Below are positions 11,159 to 45,532 of a stretch of DNA of 45,705 bases, piece by piece (the first letter of the stretch is position 1; each line of letters begins with the position of its first letter). The notes below the pieces were generated by a model. It saw nothing but the letters and a program-made list of their open reading frames with translations. It ran no database searches and was not told where the DNA came from. Made by a program: the position numbers and the translations under genes. Origin of the DNA: an uncultured Deferribacteres bacterium. Its GTDB lineage: Bacteria; Zhuqueibacterota; JdFR-76; DREG01. The stretch is from positions 1 to 45,705 of the forward strand of contig CAJVYQ010000039.1 of NCBI GenBank assembly GCA_913009825.1. The letters are read 5' to 3'.

Positions 11159-11332
11159 GCACTCACCTTTTTTTAATGATTTTTACAGAATATTTATCTG
11201 AAATGATCAAAACGTTAAAAATCATTTCACTCAATTTTGTAATTTGTTCAAAACAATTTAATATAGAAAAACAGAATAACCAACGCAATTTTTTTTTATC
11301 TGTTTGGATGATAGTCGAATCATTTAATACTT

Positions 11333-11613
11333 GTAACTATTCAGGATACAATACAATTATATTAGAAGTTATTTTACATCCCCCGTACCCACTTCAAGCG
11401 GGGTGTCCCTTTAATCTACATGAATAGTGACAGAGATTCGCCCAAAATCAACGAAACTGATTGTATATGAGAAAAATAATGATTGGCCTTTTATCATCTA
11501 AAATGCTTCGAATATTACTAAAATAATTTAACACATAATAAAACTAAATTTATGGTTTTTTCTGTGGCATCTCTATTCCGCGGCCTAATTTTTTCAAGTT
11601 TCTTGAAAGTTAC
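11333..11613. mobile_element. GTAAC-family miniature element (IS66-like ends), copy A
   Basis: 281 bp. The left end is GTAACTATTCAGGA; the right end inverts to GTAACTTTCAAGA, the same terminus with a single-base gap. It is flanked by TAATACTT (11325-11332) and TAATACTC (11614-11621), an 8-bp target duplication with one change. It is roughly 80 percent identical by eye to 13275-13562 and carries no ORF. Ends starting GTAA with 8-bp duplications are typical of IS66, so it may be moved by an IS66 transposase in trans. It lies 17 bp beyond the dacB stop. The rest of the 11159-11630 gap is AT-rich leader DNA for pntAA. Confidence 0.85.
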
Positions 11614-14786: not shown

Positions 14787-15806
14787 CTACAGCTTGCGCA
14801 AATAAATACTGCCGCCGGAGGTTCGTAACACTAATTCCGGTCCGCCGCCATTGATTTTTGCCCGTAACGAGCTCTTACTTATTCTTCCCTGAACCGTGAC
14901 GGGAAAATCCGTTTCCACATGGCCGCCGCTTGTTTTGGCATCCAGATTCACGGCAATACCTTCGGCAAGATACACTTTTACACTGCCGCCCGAGGTTTTA
15001 AGATAGCATCTCGCTTGCGGCTGGCGGGAGATATGTGCCGTCACGGTGCCGCCGGAAGTCGACGCTTCGATGGCGCCCATTACTTCCTCCACTTTGATAC
15101 TTCCACCCGAAGTTTTGGCCACAACTTCCCCCTTAGCACGCTCAATGGTGATGGGTCCGCCCGAGGTGTGCGCATCCACATTGCCATCTACATTACCGAT
15201 ATGAATGCTGCCGCCGGAGGTGCGCACGTCTGCTGTTCCCACACACCCTTCCAGCGAAATACTGCCGCCGGAGGTTCTGCCATATACAGGACCTTCAATT
15301 GCGCCAAAAGTTAAGCTGCCGCCGGAAGTTTTACTTCTCACTTTTCCTCGCAGATCATCTATAGAGATGCTGCCGCCGGATGTGTTTAGGTCAACATTAT
15401 ACTCTTTGGGGACGCTGATTACATATTTAATTTTCAACTTGCGTCTTATTTTGTCCCACCAGCTTCTGTTTTTAAACTCACCACGAATTCCCACATCGTC
15501 GCCATGTTGGTCAAAACTGATTTCGAAATTGTCAAGGATTTCATCTTTATCCCGATTGCTCCATGTGTTGACTTTACGAAAGACTTCCACTTTCACCCGG
15601 TTGTCCCCTATCGCTTTAATTTCGATGGTGCCGATATCTGTGTTCAGTGTCAGCGTTCCCCCGGGGGCAACTTTAAACGATTTCTTAATCGTATTTTGCA
15701 AACCCGCATCTTCGGTACCGCTGCGCACAACGGCGGAACAGTTTGTACCGGAGAGGGTTGACAGGGTGAACACAATCAATAAAAAGAATCGATGCATTGG
15801 CCGCAT
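14787..15806 (-). CDS. DUF4097-like TSGG-repeat beta-solenoid protein (short paralogue)
   Basis: About 339 aa, exported (signal peptide with LLIVFTLSTLSGTNCSA). An N-terminal domain (about 25-135) precedes a solenoid of ten TSGG motifs plus a degenerate NGGG. The first seven motifs are spaced exactly 18 residues apart, then spacing widens to 21. Start 15806 is chosen because AAAGGAG lies 5 bases before it. DUF4097/adhesin-like proteins often accompany ECF sigma/anti-sigma pairs, as here (genes at 16282-19203), suggesting an envelope-stress or surface role; this is inference. A 475-bp repeat-bearing gap separates it from the longer paralogue. Confidence 0.85.
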   Translation of the reverse strand: MRPMHRFFLLIVFTLSTLSGTNCSAVVRSGTEDAGLQNTIKKSFKVAPGGTLTLNTDIGTIEIKAIGDNRVKVEVFRKVNTWSNRDKDEILDNFEISFDQHGDDVGIRGEFKNRSWWDKIRRKLKIKYVISVPKEYNVDLNTSGGSISIDDLRGKVRSKTSGGSLTFGAIEGPVYGRTSGGSISLEGCVGTADVRTSGGSIHIGNVDGNVDAHTSGGPITIERAKGEVVAKTSGGSIKVEEVMGAIEASTSGGTVTAHISRQPQARCYLKTSGGSVKVYLAEGIAVNLDAKTSGGHVETDFPVTVQGRISKSSLRAKINGGGPELVLRTSGGSIYLRKL

Positions 15807-16281
15807 GGCAGCTCCTTTCAAGTTGGTTAGAGTTTAGTTGGTTTTGATTTTAATTTGAAAAAGTTTATTATCCAATTTTGATACTTTTTTAATTTAAGTT
15901 GAGGATTTCTGCTCCTCTCACGTAGAAATTTTAAAATGATATTAAGTGCGCAATCAGGCTAAAGCCTCAAAAATTATGTGCTGATTTTAAGCCGCAATCT
16001 AAAGATCGTGGCTATGAACTATTTTTTCCCTTCTCATTACCACGAGCTTTAGCCTGTGGTAGATTGATCATCGCTCTTCTCCGGGCTTTGGCCCAAAAAG
16101 CAGATTGTTTTTGCGCGTTCTCTTCAGTCAGCAACATTGCTTCCCTCCAGGAGAAGAGTAAAACTTACCTGAATAATTAACGCCTGACCGAAAACTCCGA
16201 AAAACAGTAAAAAACCTCATTCCCGCCGTGCCCAGGGCAAGCGGGAATGACGGAAAACCGGGTTTTTCGTTCAGGCACCAA
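15807..16281. repeat. Non-coding gap with several inverted repeats, incl. dispersed repeat copy 2
   Basis: No gene is supported. Seen here are CAGGCTAAAGCCT- and GAGCTTTAGCCTG-like palindromic units (15956-16055), GGGCTTTGGCCC near 16083, and an element at 16182-16276 whose ends GCCTGACCGAAAAC and GTTTTTCGTTCAGGC are inverted with one mismatch. Inside the latter, TCATTCCCGC and GCGGGAATGA form a hairpin. The stretch 16189-16228 resembles 3192-3230. It separates the two TSGG-repeat genes of one regulon. Confidence 0.6.
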
Positions 16282-17553
16282 TTACTTTTTCTTGATGTAG
16301 ATATTGCCGCCGGAAGTATGCAAACGGATTTCATCACCGCCACCGTTGATTTTGCCCGTGCTGCGGATCACTTTGCGTCCATTGTCTTCCGTCTGTTCTT
16401 TGGACAGTGGGAAATCACTGTAAATGTCATATCGTTTCCAGGAGCGCTCTCTACGGCCCAAATTGATTTCCGCAACAATTTTCGCCGGAATTTTTGCCGG
16501 CAGTTTCAATGTAATGTCGCCACCACTTGTACGTAAATTCACGGTGTGAGGTTGCGAAAAATCTTTTAATGTGATGTCCACATCCATATTGCCGCCGGAG
16601 GTTTTTGCGTTTACCGCCCCGTTCACGCCGGAAAGTTCCACATCGCCGCCGGAAGTTTTGACATCCAGAGGCGCATTGAATCCTCGGCCCTCAATGTCGC
16701 CGCCGCTTGTTGAACCGCTAAATTTTCCGCCGATGGCTTTGGCCCGAATATCACCGCCGGAAGTAGTAACATTCACCGAACCGCTGCAATCGCGCACGTC
16801 GATACTACCACCGGAAGTTTTACCGGTGAGGTTCCCGGAGATTTCCATGATTTTCAGATTGCCGCCGGAAGTGTGAACGGTAACATTTTTGTCGGCATTG
16901 ATCACAGAAATATTTCCGCCGGACGTCTTCACATCCGCATCTCCGGCGATATCCCGCATTTTTATATTGCCACCGGAAGTCTTTGCGCTGAGGGTTCCTT
17001 TGATACCGGAAAATTCAAGATTGCCGCCGGAAGTTTTTGCTTTTACCGGGCCGGTAATTTCCGCTAATTTGATATCCCCGCCGGAGGTTTTTAGTGTTAT
17101 TTCACCGGACAATTTTGTCACGGAGATATCTCCGCCGCTTACATGAATGTTCAGATTAAATTCCACCGGCACAAAAATATCAAAATTTTGCTGCAAATGA
17201 CGCTTGCCTTTGAATCCGGTTATGGAAACGGTATTACCTGTGTTCGTATAACGGCTTTTCGCCCGTTTTAAAATTTCTTCCGCTTCTCCCCGTGTGAACA
17301 CATCCATACGAAGCTGTTCTGTAATTCTAACACTGTTTTTATCCCAGGAGTTAATGATCACATCGCCGGATATGCTTTGCATTTCCAGATTCCCGCCGGG
17401 TTTTACGGTGAAATTCTTTTCAACTTTCACCTGATAGACGCCGTTTTTTTCCACAATTTTCTGAGCCGCCGCTGTGCCGGCAAGCACGATAACGGCCAGT
17501 CCGGTTAACATCCGGGAAAAAAAGGCAGCATGGGTAAATTGAATCTTTTTCAT
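16282..17553 (-). CDS. DUF4097-like TSGG-repeat beta-solenoid protein (long paralogue)
   Basis: 423 aa, exported (signal peptide about 1-30, LTGLAVIVLAGTAAAQ). An N-terminal domain (about 31-135) with KPGGNLEMQSISGDVIINSW leads into a solenoid. Eleven [T/V]SGG motifs from HVSGGD to KTSGGNMDV are each exactly 18 residues apart, a period expected for a beta-solenoid with one rung per repeat. Two further TSGG motifs lie in the irregular C-terminal part. AAAGGAG lies 5 bases before the ATG. The start overlaps the anti-sigma stop by 4 bases, so it is translationally coupled to the sigma/anti-sigma pair. Binding partner unknown. Confidence 0.88.
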   Translation of the reverse strand: MKKIQFTHAAFFSRMLTGLAVIVLAGTAAAQKIVEKNGVYQVKVEKNFTVKPGGNLEMQSISGDVIINSWDKNSVRITEQLRMDVFTRGEAEEILKRAKSRYTNTGNTVSITGFKGKRHLQQNFDIFVPVEFNLNIHVSGGDISVTKLSGEITLKTSGGDIKLAEITGPVKAKTSGGNLEFSGIKGTLSAKTSGGNIKMRDIAGDADVKTSGGNISVINADKNVTVHTSGGNLKIMEISGNLTGKTSGGSIDVRDCSGSVNVTTSGGDIRAKAIGGKFSGSTSGGDIEGRGFNAPLDVKTSGGDVELSGVNGAVNAKTSGGNMDVDITLKDFSQPHTVNLRTSGGDITLKLPAKIPAKIVAEINLGRRERSWKRYDIYSDFPLSKEQTEDNGRKVIRSTGKINGGGDEIRLHTSGGNIYIKKK

Positions 17554-19407: not shown

Positions 19408-20141
19408 ATGCGCAATTTAAAATTTAATATTTGTAACTATTCAGCTTGGTTTCATTTTGCCACGAAAACACGAAGCCACAAAGTTTCACCAAGAAAACCA
19501 TTATTGTTTTTTATGTTATCCGATATATCATGTTTCATATTTTGTTACGAACCTGAATTGAAGGATTGTAGGGCGATTCGCTGAATCGCCAATCTAATCT
19601 ACATTAAAAATAAAAATCTGTTCAGTAACAAAAACAACTCAAAAACAAGAGGGTCGCTCAATTTAGGACGAAGTAAAATCCACCGCCGCGAGCAGTAATA
19701 ATTTGACTGATTTCTTTTTCTTTATGTCTCTTAGTGCCTTCCCTGCCCGATGCAGGCAGGGAGACTTTGTGGCTGAATAGTTACTAATATTTTTATATTG
19801 TTACTGTGTTTCATATCATCATGTTCAAAAAAAAATGTATCTCCAATCAGGACTGAAATAGTTGATGGTGTAAATGTAACAACCAATACAGATTATCCCC
19901 GGGATGGAATATTTAAATTTGACTTAAAAGAAGAACTTTCAATTGGAACTGAAAATGGTAATCAGAATTATATTTTGAATAGACCATCTGATATTAAAAT
20001 TGCACCTAATGGAACAATTTTCATTTTGGACTGGGTGATATAACTATAAAAGTGTACGACAAAAATGGAAAATATCTCCGTAATATTGGACGAAAAGGTA
20101 TGGGCCCCGGAGAATTTAATCGTCCGCCATTTATTCTAACC
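19408..20141 (+). pseudogene. 6-bladed beta-propeller lipoprotein gene, disrupted three ways
   Basis: The ATG at 19408 has a good AAGGTG site 5 bases upstream. The first nine codons are interrupted at 19433 by a 352-bp element. If that element and one 8-bp duplication are removed, the frame continues as MRNLKFNIFILLLCF then ISSCSKKN, a complete lipoprotein signal. Read through the insert, translation stops at TGA 19582-19584. Further on, one G appears lost in the GGG at 20033-20035: in frame the reading ends at 20043, while shifted by one base it continues as GDITIKVYDKNGKYLRNIG then GMGPGEF, matching the intact paralogues at 25741 and 26956. The gene then ends after about 110 codons of an expected 380, where a second element sits. 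AT-rich. Confidence 0.85.
19433..19784. mobile_element. GTAAC-family miniature element (IS66-like ends), copy C
   Basis: 352 bp with 13-bp perfect inverted ends (GTAACTATTCAGC and complement) and a perfect 8-bp duplication, TAATATTT, at 19425-19432 and 19785-19792. The interior is unrelated to copies A and B: it holds CACGAAAACACGAAG-type repeat, GGCGATTCGCTGAATCGCC, one end of the TAAATTGAGCG family (CGCTCAATTTAGG, 19654-19666) and CCTGCCCGATGCAGGCAGG. It encodes no transposase. Element plus duplication is 360 bp. Confidence 0.92.
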
Positions 20142-42193: not shown

Positions 42194-43573
42194 ATGAAAT
42201 CTTCACTCACAATCAAAATTGTTATTTTCAGTTTACTTGCCATGTTCAGCACAAATGCATTTGCGCAACTCCCGCAAGAGACGCCTCAGCAGAAAGCTCA
42301 AAGAATGAAATGGTGGACGGATGCGCGGTTCGGCATGTTCATTCATTGGGGATTGTACGCCTTGCCGGCCCGGCATGAATGGGTGAAAAAAAATGAACGG
42401 CTCACCAACGAAGAATATCAAAAATATTTTGAGATGTTCAATCCGGATCTGTTCAACCCCCGGCAATGGGCGAAAATGGCCAAAGAAGCCGGTATGAGAT
42501 ATGCCGTGATTACATCCAAACATCACGAGGGATTTTGTCTGTTCGACTCCAAATACACCGATTACAAGGCGCCCAACACACCCTGCGGCAAAGACCTGAT
42601 CAAAGAATGGGTGGAAGCATTCCGGGCCGAGGGATTGAAAGTGGGTTTCTATTACTCCCTGCTGGACTGGCACCATCCGGATTATACCATCGACCGGAAT
42701 CATCCCCGGAGCGCTTCTTCCGATGAAGAATATGCCCGGCTGAACAAAGGCAGGGACATGAACAAATACCGGAAATACATCAAAAACCAGGTGCGGGAAC
42801 TGCTGACCAATTACGGAAAAATTGATATCATCTGGCTGGATTACTCTTTTCCCGGCGGAAAGCACGGCAAGAGTCGAAAAGACTGGGATTCCATCAATCT
42901 GCTTAAAATGGTGCGGAAACTGCAGCCGCAAATCATCGTCAATGACCGGTTGGATCTGTTGGATGTGCCGGGCGGCTGGGATTTTACCACGCCGGAACAA
43001 TACAAAGTTTCCAAATGGCCGGAAAGGAACGGCAAGCGCATTCCGTGGGAAACCTGCCAGACTTTCTCCGGTTCCTGGGGTTACTACCGGGACGAAACCA
43101 CCTGGAAAGATACGAAACAACTGCTGGTTCTGCTTATCGAATCGGTGAGTAAAGGCGGCAATCTTCTGCTCAATGTGGGTCCCACCGCCAGGGGAACGTT
43201 CGATTACCGCGCCAAAGACAGACTGCACGCCATGGGAGAATGGATGAAGGTCAACAGCCGCTCTGTTTACGGCTGCACCCAGGCGCCGGATCAGTTTCCC
43301 AGGCCTGATAATTGCTTGCTGACTTACAATCCCAAAACCAACCGGTTGTACGTCCATTTACTGGATTACCCCATCAAGCGTTTCACGCTGAAAGGATTCG
43401 GCGGTAAAGTGAAATATGCGCAATTTCTGCACGACGCTTCGGAGCTTAAATTCGGCAAACCGAGATATAATGTTACCTACCAGGAGAAGAAAAGCCCCAA
43501 AGACGTAATTTTGATTCTGCCGGTGGTAAAACCGCCTGTTGAAATTCCGGTTATTGAGCTGTTTTTGAAGTGA
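42194..43573 (+). CDS. GH29 alpha-L-fucosidase
   Basis: 459 aa. A signal peptide (IVIFSLLAMFSTNAFAQ) precedes the GH29 catalytic barrel: WWTDARFGMFIHWGLYALPA, EAGMRYAVITSKHHEGFCLF, GLKVGFYYSLLDWHHPDY. The nucleophile is probably Asp216 in KIDIIWLDYSFPGG. ESVSKGGNLLLNVGPTARG is the usual late motif. It hydrolyses terminal alpha-L-fucose from glycans and is probably periplasmic. No transporter or other glycosidase lies beside it. The GC content is like most of the window, in contrast to the preceding gene. Confidence 0.95.
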   Translation: MKSSLTIKIVIFSLLAMFSTNAFAQLPQETPQQKAQRMKWWTDARFGMFIHWGLYALPARHEWVKKNERLTNEEYQKYFEMFNPDLFNPRQWAKMAKEAGMRYAVITSKHHEGFCLFDSKYTDYKAPNTPCGKDLIKEWVEAFRAEGLKVGFYYSLLDWHHPDYTIDRNHPRSASSDEEYARLNKGRDMNKYRKYIKNQVRELLTNYGKIDIIWLDYSFPGGKHGKSRKDWDSINLLKMVRKLQPQIIVNDRLDLLDVPGGWDFTTPEQYKVSKWPERNGKRIPWETCQTFSGSWGYYRDETTWKDTKQLLVLLIESVSKGGNLLLNVGPTARGTFDYRAKDRLHAMGEWMKVNSRSVYGCTQAPDQFPRPDNCLLTYNPKTNRLYVHLLDYPIKRFTLKGFGGKVKYAQFLHDASELKFGKPRYNVTYQEKKSPKDVILILPVVKPPVEIPVIELFLK

Positions 43574-43583
43574 TTACTTATGT

Positions 43584-43601
43584 TTACACCCCGGGGTGTA
43601 A
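43584..43601. terminator. Perfect 18-bp palindrome after the fucosidase gene
   Basis: TTACACCCC joined directly to GGGGTGTAA, 11 bp past the stop. The following GGGTGTAACATTACAC (43594-43609) is repeated at 44287-44302, next to the stop of the convergent permease gene, so the two gene ends share a sequence tag. Confidence 0.5.
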
Positions 43602-43794
43602 CATTACACAGCCGGTTGAATTTTGCATAAGTTTCTATCCGGGGTCTTTAATACCCAATGTTGTTGACTTAAGAGAGATTTTCATTAACAATTACCAATT
43701 GCAAATATTCAGATAGGATAAGTAATTTCCGGTTAGGTTTTTACAATTGGCAACATAGTCAAAAAAGAGAACAAAAACGGTGTTTGCTATTTCG

Positions 43795-43918
43795 CCCCGA
43801 AGAAAAACTTTGGGACTAAGAATGGAAAGGATCCGCTTGAGGCGGACTCTGCGTTGTGAGCGCTATTTATGGCGCTTTCTATTCTTAGTCCCGTAGTTTA
43901 CTTTGTAAATTACGGGGT
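43795..43918. ncRNA. Multi-hairpin structured module 1 (novel candidate)
   Basis: Four helices in order: CCCGAAG/CTTTGGG; an enclosing stem GGGACTAAGAAT (43812-43823) with ATTCTTAGTCCC (43880-43891); inside it TCCGC/GCGGA and AGCGCTA-TTTA-TGGCGCT-type arms; then CCCGTAGTTTAC/GTAAATTACGGG. The arrangement is repeated with different stem sequence at 44131-44240. Whether it acts as RNA or as a DNA repeat is not known. Confidence 0.5.
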
Positions 43919-44130
43919 TGCAAAAACCTAACCGGAAATCACTGAGATAGGATATAATTGTGTTGATATTTTTTATCACTCCCCGCTCCTACTTCAAGGT
44001 GGAGCTAAAAGTCCCCTCTTGAGAGGGGATTTAGGCCTGCCTGCGCAGGCAGGGGTGTGTTATCCAATACTATCGAATTTTTCATTATTTTCCGGAGATA
44101 TTGTTTTATGCTCAATCAGTTACAACGCTC

Positions 44131-44240
44131 GCCTGATGGTGAACCATCAGGCTAAGAATAGAAAGGACGCTGAAGCGTCCTATAGGGAGAGCGTCATTTA
44201 TGACGCTTGCTAATCTTAACCCCGTGATTTATCGTGGGGT
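44131..44240. ncRNA. Multi-hairpin structured module 2 (novel candidate)
   Basis: Starts with the perfect hairpin GCCTGATGGT-GA-ACCATCAGGC, then CTAAGAATAGAAAGGA as in module 1, GGACGC-TGAA-GCGTCC, AGCGTCA-TTTA-TGACGCT, a weaker closing segment CTAATCTTAA, and ACCCCGTGA-TTTA-TCGTGGGGT. Loops and linkers are conserved against module 1 while stem pairs change together. Confidence 0.5.
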
Positions 44241-44296
44241 GGATGTCGGAAATTCCTTAAGTCAACAACATTATCTCTAAGACCCAGGGTGTAACA

Positions 44297-44815
44297 TTAC
44301 ACTTCGTAACCCGCCATTTCAATCTTCTTTTTCACTTCCTGAATAACTTTTTCCGGGACGGGATCAAATTCAATATTTTCACCCTGTAAGTTGACAACCA
44401 CATGGGTAATACCGGGTACGGATTCCGCCGCTTTTTGCACCGTGCCGACGCAGTGCATGCAGGTCATTCCTTTTACCGGAAATGAAATGCGGTTTGTTTC
44501 TTTTTCCATAGGTTTTATTCTCCCTGATAATAGTTTTGCATGAACGTAGAACCAAATCAACATAGTCAGTAACGTAACCGATCCGACAAGCTTCAGCCAG
44601 GCGGGAAACAGTTCATGTTGATGGTGTGAAATGATATTGCCGATGCCGATGCGCGCGGAAACCGCGTTCAACAAGAAGCCCAGACCAAGGCTTACCAGGC
44701 TGATTGACGCGAGATAAACCGCAGTCGATTTTTTGCCGACGATTTTCACCACCGTCGATAAATTAGCTGCGTTGGTGGCCGGGCCGGTGAGCAAAAAAAC
44801 AAGAGCCGCGCCGGG
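44297..44815 (-). pseudogene. C-terminal part of SO_0444-type permease: membrane segment plus HMA domain
   Basis: Downstream of an in-frame TAG the same frame continues PGAALVFLLTGPATNAANLS, the conserved permease segment, then transmembrane helices and a C-terminal heavy-metal-associated domain with MTCMHCVGTVQKAAE (CxxC) and NIEFDPVPEKV. The first possible restart is TTG at 44794 without a ribosome site, giving 165 aa. It belongs with 44816-45532; together they make a normal protein of about 411 aa. Cu/Zn efflux is the role proposed for this family. Confidence 0.8.
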
Positions 44816-45532
44816 CTAAATGCCTTTCATGAGCAGAGATGCGGCAATGGGAGTGGAAGCGGAGGCACAGACATAAATGGGGATGCCGATTGCCAGCATG
44901 ATCATCATGGACAAAAACGGGCTGCCCAGATATTGGTCAAAGAAAGTATTGGGAATCAGTACGCCGATCACAGCAGCCACCACAATGCCGACCAACAAAG
45001 CATTGGCGATGGAACCAAGGAGTTCATATTCGATGTAACTGAAGATAGAACGCAACCGTTCTTTGTAGCTGCCGTTTAATTGATCCATTGATTTTGAGTC
45101 GGTTTCGCTTCCGTTGTCTTTTCTGTCGAACAGATTGATCACAATTCCTGCAATCAGGGCAGTAACGGCGGATGCTGCGATACGAAACAGGGCAAAAACC
45201 CAGCCGATCAGCGAATAGGTAACCATAAAACTATCTGCGCCGATCTGCGGTGTGGTTATCAGAAAAGAGACCACCGCCCCCTTCGAGGCGCCGCTTTTTC
45301 GCAGAGAAGTGGCCACCGGCACAACACTGCAGGAACAAAGAGGCAACGGGATGCCAAACAAGGTTGATTTAACTACCGAACCAAGCGAACTGCGTCCCAG
45401 ATGTTTGCGCACCAGGGATTCCGGAAACAAAACATGCAGAACGCCGGCAACTAAAAACCCGAAAATCAGATAGATGGATATTTCATTGAAGAAATAGACA
45501 ATCTCTTTTAAAAATACTGTGATCATATTCAA
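44816..45532 (-). pseudogene. N-terminal part of SO_0444-type (DUF318/YraQ) metal permease, ended by amber codon
   Basis: 238 aa to the TAG at 44818-44816. Features: first helix IYLIFGFLVAGVLHVLFP, the Cys motif GIPLPLCSCSVVPVATSLRK, GASKGAVVSFLITTPQIGAD, and a second half AIGIPIYVCASASTPIAASL then LMKGI where the stop falls. Relatives continue directly into PGAALVF, so only one codon separates an intact gene from this. Possible starts are TTG 45532 (GAGAG site upstream) and ATG 45526. Either a nonsense-mutated pseudogene or a sequencing error. Confidence 0.8.

Follow-up and report, generated by a model that had tools for sequence, protein, structure and literature searches.

Four-hairpin modules in an uncultured Deferribacteres bacterium are probably REPIN-like DNA repeats partnered by a single-copy Y1 transposase

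The window, a 45,705-nucleotide stretch of DNA from an uncultured Deferribacteres bacterium, contains two modules of four hairpins each that recur elsewhere in the genome. We conclude, with a probability of about 0.78, that the modules are REPIN-like non-autonomous DNA repeats and that their partner is a module-bracketed, single-copy HUH/Y1 transposase fitting TnpAY1 subclass 1.2. The pairing of a Y1 gene with modules is seen again in four related genomes and, there with modules that have diverged, in Cyanobacteria, Chloroflexi and other phyla.

Both modules sit between convergent genes, an ORF on the plus strand (42194–43573) and an ORF on the minus strand (44297–44794). The original prediction described two multi-hairpin modules here, and its loops and linkers are present; our covariance model sets the module limits at 43790–43916 and 44127–44247. 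Module 1 matches the model with 96.8 bits on the plus strand and consists of two inverted REP-like halves. Read along this strand, it contains the outer hairpin hp1 of the inverted half (43796–43814, assigned from sequence and model structure), the tetranucleotide CTAA (43816–43819), the inner hairpins hp2 (TCCGC/GCGGA, 43832–43846) and hp3 (loop TTTA, 43859–43876), a TTAG foot (43885–43888) recognized by its frequency across copies, and the outer hairpin hp4 (43890–43916). Module 2, scoring 122.6 bits on the plus and 95.1 bits on the minus strand, repeats this order on the plus strand with hp1 at 44131–44152, hp2 at 44165–44180, hp3 (loop TTTA) at 44190–44207, and hp4 with its foot, TTAA as a variant of TTAG, at 44216–44239; these hairpins, like hp2–hp4 of module 1, are assigned from sequence and fold. 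The paired stem changes first noted between the two copies, for instance TCCGC/GCGGA to GGACGC/GCGTCC, are correct in the sequence. The folding energies are −58.3 kcal/mol for module 1 (z −7.05) and −53.5 kcal/mol for module 2 (z −5.49), and 0/200 shuffles match either value.

Three features go beyond the first description: a pairing across the module, a near dyad symmetry, and two nested pairs of terminal inverted repeats (TIRs) around the modules. The segment CTAAGAAT, which follows hp1, pairs with ATTCTTAG, which precedes hp4, so that a central stem encloses hp2 and hp3 and leaves hp1 and hp4 outside. One REP-like unit reads, 5' to 3', inner hairpin, linker, TTAG and outer hairpin; the module's first half is this same unit on the opposite strand. 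Elsewhere in the window, a permease and a heavy-metal-binding domain are encoded by two minus-strand ORFs (44297–45532) that meet near 44800 and may be a single gene interrupted by a stop or frameshift. Repeats around GCCGCCGGAAGT at 14804–17091, spaced by multiples of 54 bp, are probably a repetitive coding region.

The covariance model was built from 25 copies of this genome, in which 86.9% of the cells are paired and 20 pairs carry a change on both sides; 0/500 shuffles reach this level, and pairing falls to 38–50% when the partner is slid by 1–3 columns. In an enlarged set, whose rows were aligned by the covariance model and whose alignment leans towards the model's own structure, pairing is 87.8% over 46 distinct rows from this genome and 91.1% over 27 rows from other genomes, none of them used in the model, with 34 two-sided changes and 0/300 shuffles as high. 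The covariation once read from two copies thus extends to the wider family. The original prediction had made its claim depend on further homologues that covary significantly; both are found, at about 112 sites or more in this genome and in other genomes.

The model matches both strands at identical sites, as two REP-like units in inverted orientation. TTAG precedes hp4 in 34/47 copies from this genome and 21/27 from others, where GTAG occupies this place in only 2/27; the GT[AG]G that stands directly at the 5' foot of the hairpin in canonical REPIN/REPtron repeats was looked for and is not the rule here. The non-Watson-Crick cells are polarized by half, with a G·T:A·C ratio of 32:77 in hp1 and hp2 (first half) and 68:13 in hp3 and hp4 (second half). 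Since A·C on one strand is G·T on the other, it looks as though the hairpins of each half have been shaped on a different strand, which is predicted by two inverted REP units and not by one folded RNA. The same direction appears in a separate alignment; in other genomes it is weaker (p 0.018), and because the copies share ancestry, p values of this kind overstate the strength. A wobble conserved at equivalent positions of hp2 and hp3 contributes to the signal, as would follow from an origin of both halves in a single unit.

In a DNA search, the window's genome yielded 90 pieces; the covariance model gave at least 149 matches at no fewer than about 112 distinct sites, many of which match on both strands owing to the near dyad symmetry of the element. 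The modules are mostly intergenic: 2/42 sites lie within an ORF of at least 150 aa, versus 40% of random windows from the same loci. The first reading knew no named family with this layout; a search of 4227 Rfam families across the window agrees, none reaching its gathering score, and yet mobile DNA repeats of the REPIN kind are relatives. In a related genome (G035, contig C12; locus L098, 1350–2600), duplicated modules seem to carry between them a degenerate copy of the 3' end of the neighboring gene, and arrays there may grow by tandem duplication.

The candidate partner is encoded on contig C28 by a 156-aa ORF with one module directly in front of it and a 154-bp tandem module array after it; a complete module stands on each side in direct orientation. 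The protein is a Y1 transposase (PF01797, 85.1 bits; NCBIfam NF033573, IS200/IS605 transposase, 75.9 bits against a cut-off of 55), and its best solved relatives are IS200/IS605-type transposases. Its tyrosine motif is YALNQKEHH, which conforms to the signature Y---Q--HH, and about 30 residues follow the core. By its motifs (Y---Q--HH, H-hydrophobic-H, WQ), its length of ~150 aa and its low copy number, it fits TnpAY1 subclass 1.2. The gene is single copy in this genome, and one close copy each occurs in G035 and G053.

The survey of the phylum covered 59 genomes at first and 82 in the end. In G035, G053, G072 and G081, homologues with ≥54% identity each adjoin modules that the model found independently, and in G060 a partial homologue (57%) is followed by a weaker module-like match (L145, L239). 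Of the six genomes that have a homologue at this level (≥54%), five belong to the seven module-rich genomes among the 82 (p 4.5e-6). G005 has many modules, but no close homologue of the C28 enzyme was found there; the gene is perhaps lost or missed in the assembly. The window's genome has two more Y1 genes with the Y---Q--HH motif, on contigs C82 and C1, each bracketed in direct orientation by hairpin clusters of its own. The C82 cluster, 96–97% alike on the two sides of its gene, is also present on several other contigs; the C1 cluster is confined to the two flanks, which are 99% alike. The covariance model (R1) was run on both loci and on two other Y1 loci and gives no match at any of the four, which indicates that the pairing of module and transposase is specific.

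A scan of genome contigs with the protein only yielded 80 loci from Cyanobacteria, Chloroflexi, Acidobacteria, Planctomycetes, Verrucomicrobia and others, 74 of which encode the Y---Q--HH motif. The model finds 28 sites in these loci (E ≤0.01), 26 of them no farther than 600 nt from the transposase gene (17% expected, p 1.4e-18). In a Spirulinaceae locus (L141), modules flank the gene on both sides and keep CTAA...TTAG on differing stems. More diverged relatives (G050, G019) show by eye four hairpins in the same order with other sequences. No universal foot tetranucleotide stands out beside all 80 relatives, and the claim of a TTAG foot is limited to the family detected by the model. Repeats common to both flanks of one gene are direct in 39 and inverted in 58 of 77 loci, versus 4–6% when flanks of different loci are paired; dyad symmetry by itself would produce the inverted ones. 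Hairpin density is 5.5 versus 1.8 per kb (72/80 loci), and because the control regions may be more often coding, the main case rests on repeat identity and model matches.

The modules also travel inside other transposons. Module 1 lies within a 225-bp element of TIR family A (43720–43944), whose arms at about 43720–43746 and 43918–43944 form a 92% inverted repeat. A comparison of filled and empty sites identifies the 9-bp target duplication AGATAGGAT on its left (43711–43719) and right (43945–43953); the empty site is in a paralogue on contig C3 (L011), and 9-bp duplications also surround other copies of this element. Target duplication is the mark of a transposase kind other than Y1, and module 1 of the window arrived as cargo of another transposon. 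An outer element of TIR family B (43657–44272) contains module 2 and the nested family A element between 17-nt arms (43657–43673 and 44256–44272) that are 100% complementary; L011 has a shorter, insert-free copy. Family B elements are flanked by imperfect direct repeats of about 11–14 bp (L018, L021, L022), longer than the 8–9 bp of the other two families. Just outside the outer element, on both sides, is a 32-nt direct repeat (81%) with GGGTGTAACATTACAC (43578–43609 and 44271–44302). A third TIR family, C, has 8-bp duplications and about 18 near-identical modules of equal score, and also occurs with unrelated cargo. Among 56 sites examined, both ends of one of the three families are present at 23, one end at 14 and no trace at 19; TIR ends at so many sites imply that the modules owe part of their spread to being carried by other transposons. 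The only empty site seen is that of the TIR element with its target duplication; for bare modules none was found. A very abundant TIR family, GTAACTATTCAGGT, gives 139 + 151 matches genome-wide at ≤1 mismatch (in the window at 134–148, 11322–11344 and 19422–19445), with 8-bp target duplications and very different palindromic cargo among its copies. Locus L232 (309–616) is onion-like, with several inverted repeats nested by eye and a module at the center, as would arise from repeats inserting centrally into other palindromes.

The hairpins could accordingly be ordinary MITEs, the passive cargo of TIR elements moved by other (DDE-type) transposases, with the Y1 gene having merely picked up copies. 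The target duplication and empty-site paralogue of module 1, the 23 sites with both TIR ends and the near-identical modules of family C point this way, and some modules do resemble MITEs in lying inside short TIR elements with 8–9 bp duplications. However, modules occur in three unrelated TIR contexts and, at the 19 sites devoid of these TIRs, in none of them; family C carries unrelated cargo as well; and the bracketing of Y1 genes by modules, seen in several genomes and phyla, is not explained by cargo alone. We regard this explanation as unlikely. A little less probable still is an IS200/IS605 insertion sequence of the TnpAY1 subclass 1.1 type, with the modules as its ends and as decayed or internally deleted copies, comparable to PATEs. 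The C28 protein does exceed the NCBIfam cut-off for this family, its best solved relatives are of this type, and hairpins flank the gene, as they do in IS200/IS605 and its PATE derivatives with their related Y1 transposases. IS200 genes have several near-identical copies on average (PMC6006769), whereas here there is one gene copy in the genome, flanked on either side by a complete, symmetric module in direct orientation, with far more gene-less copies, and a Y---Q--HH motif in place of that of subclass 1.1.

The original prediction hinted at a structured transcript, and strong covariation and a location between convergent genes would suit a non-coding RNA or transcript-end element selected as RNA. 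Against this stand the near dyad symmetry with both strands matching, the wobble pairs that favor opposite strands in the two halves, the lack of any Rfam match, the absence of a T run after hp4 in the window, and a tandem array beside a transposase gene. We consider RNA-level selection very improbable; the symmetry, the wobble polarity and the bracketing of the transposase redirect that suggestion to a mobile DNA repeat of the REPIN kind. A self-cleaving ribozyme, attC-like sites and a retron, brought to mind by the hairpin order and the tandem array, were dropped because the modules surround a Y1 transposase.

The closest known systems to such REPIN-like repeats are REPINs/BIMEs with TnpAREP (RAYT), the REPtrons, which share inverted pairs of hairpin units, intergenic location, many copies, tandem runs, repeat copies on both sides of a single-copy Y1 gene, and one repeat family per gene (PMC6006769, PMC8266576). 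The modules differ from them in a TTAG foot where REPs have GT[AG]G, in two hairpins per half with cross-paired linkers, and in a partner enzyme of class 1, not class 2. Because the canonical GTAG foot is lacking, we describe a variant of the REPIN/REPtron system rather than a canonical member. GTAG and CGTC families have been described by Di Nocera et al. 2013 (PMC3733652). TnpAY1 subclass 1.2 was defined by Quentin et al. 2018 through Y---Q--HH, low copy number and a C-terminal domain; its members, mostly from Cyanobacteria and Bacteroidetes, are generally without IS200 terminal structures, and no REP is listed for them (PMC6006769). The genes here share the motifs, size and copy number of the subclass as published, but they are bracketed by repeats and come from many more phyla. 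The automatic REP search of that study required GTAG or GTGG (PMC6006769), so that TTAG modules would be missed. Our literature search, with subscription papers and ISfinder outside its reach, found no link of subclass 1.2 with repeats. The modules look like the missing REP partner of this subclass. We also favor, with less assurance than the main reading, the broader proposal that subclass 1.2 generally comprises REPtron-type enzymes whose partners are distinct composite REPs (two hairpins per half, cross-paired halves), in many phyla and with an own repeat family for each gene.

From the association of modules and gene we infer mobilization by the Y1 enzyme. Single-stranded DNA, for example on the lagging strand, would let a module half fold; the enzyme would bind the hairpin with the TTAG foot as a guide, cleave next to it through a 5'-phosphotyrosine link, and rejoin it elsewhere. 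For TnpAREP, there is evidence that the final two letters of GTAG matter in the choice of the CT cleavage site (PMC8266576). TTAG keeps these two letters, thought to guide CT cleavage in REPs, and this yields a direct prediction for an in vitro assay.

The modules offer a concrete candidate substrate for an orphan HUH/Y1 subclass that adjoins the IS200 transposases, and bear on how insertion-sequence enzymes became REP-associated genes. In phyla that have received little study, this reading would account for a conspicuous group of hairpin repeats, which also hitch-hike in unrelated TIR elements.
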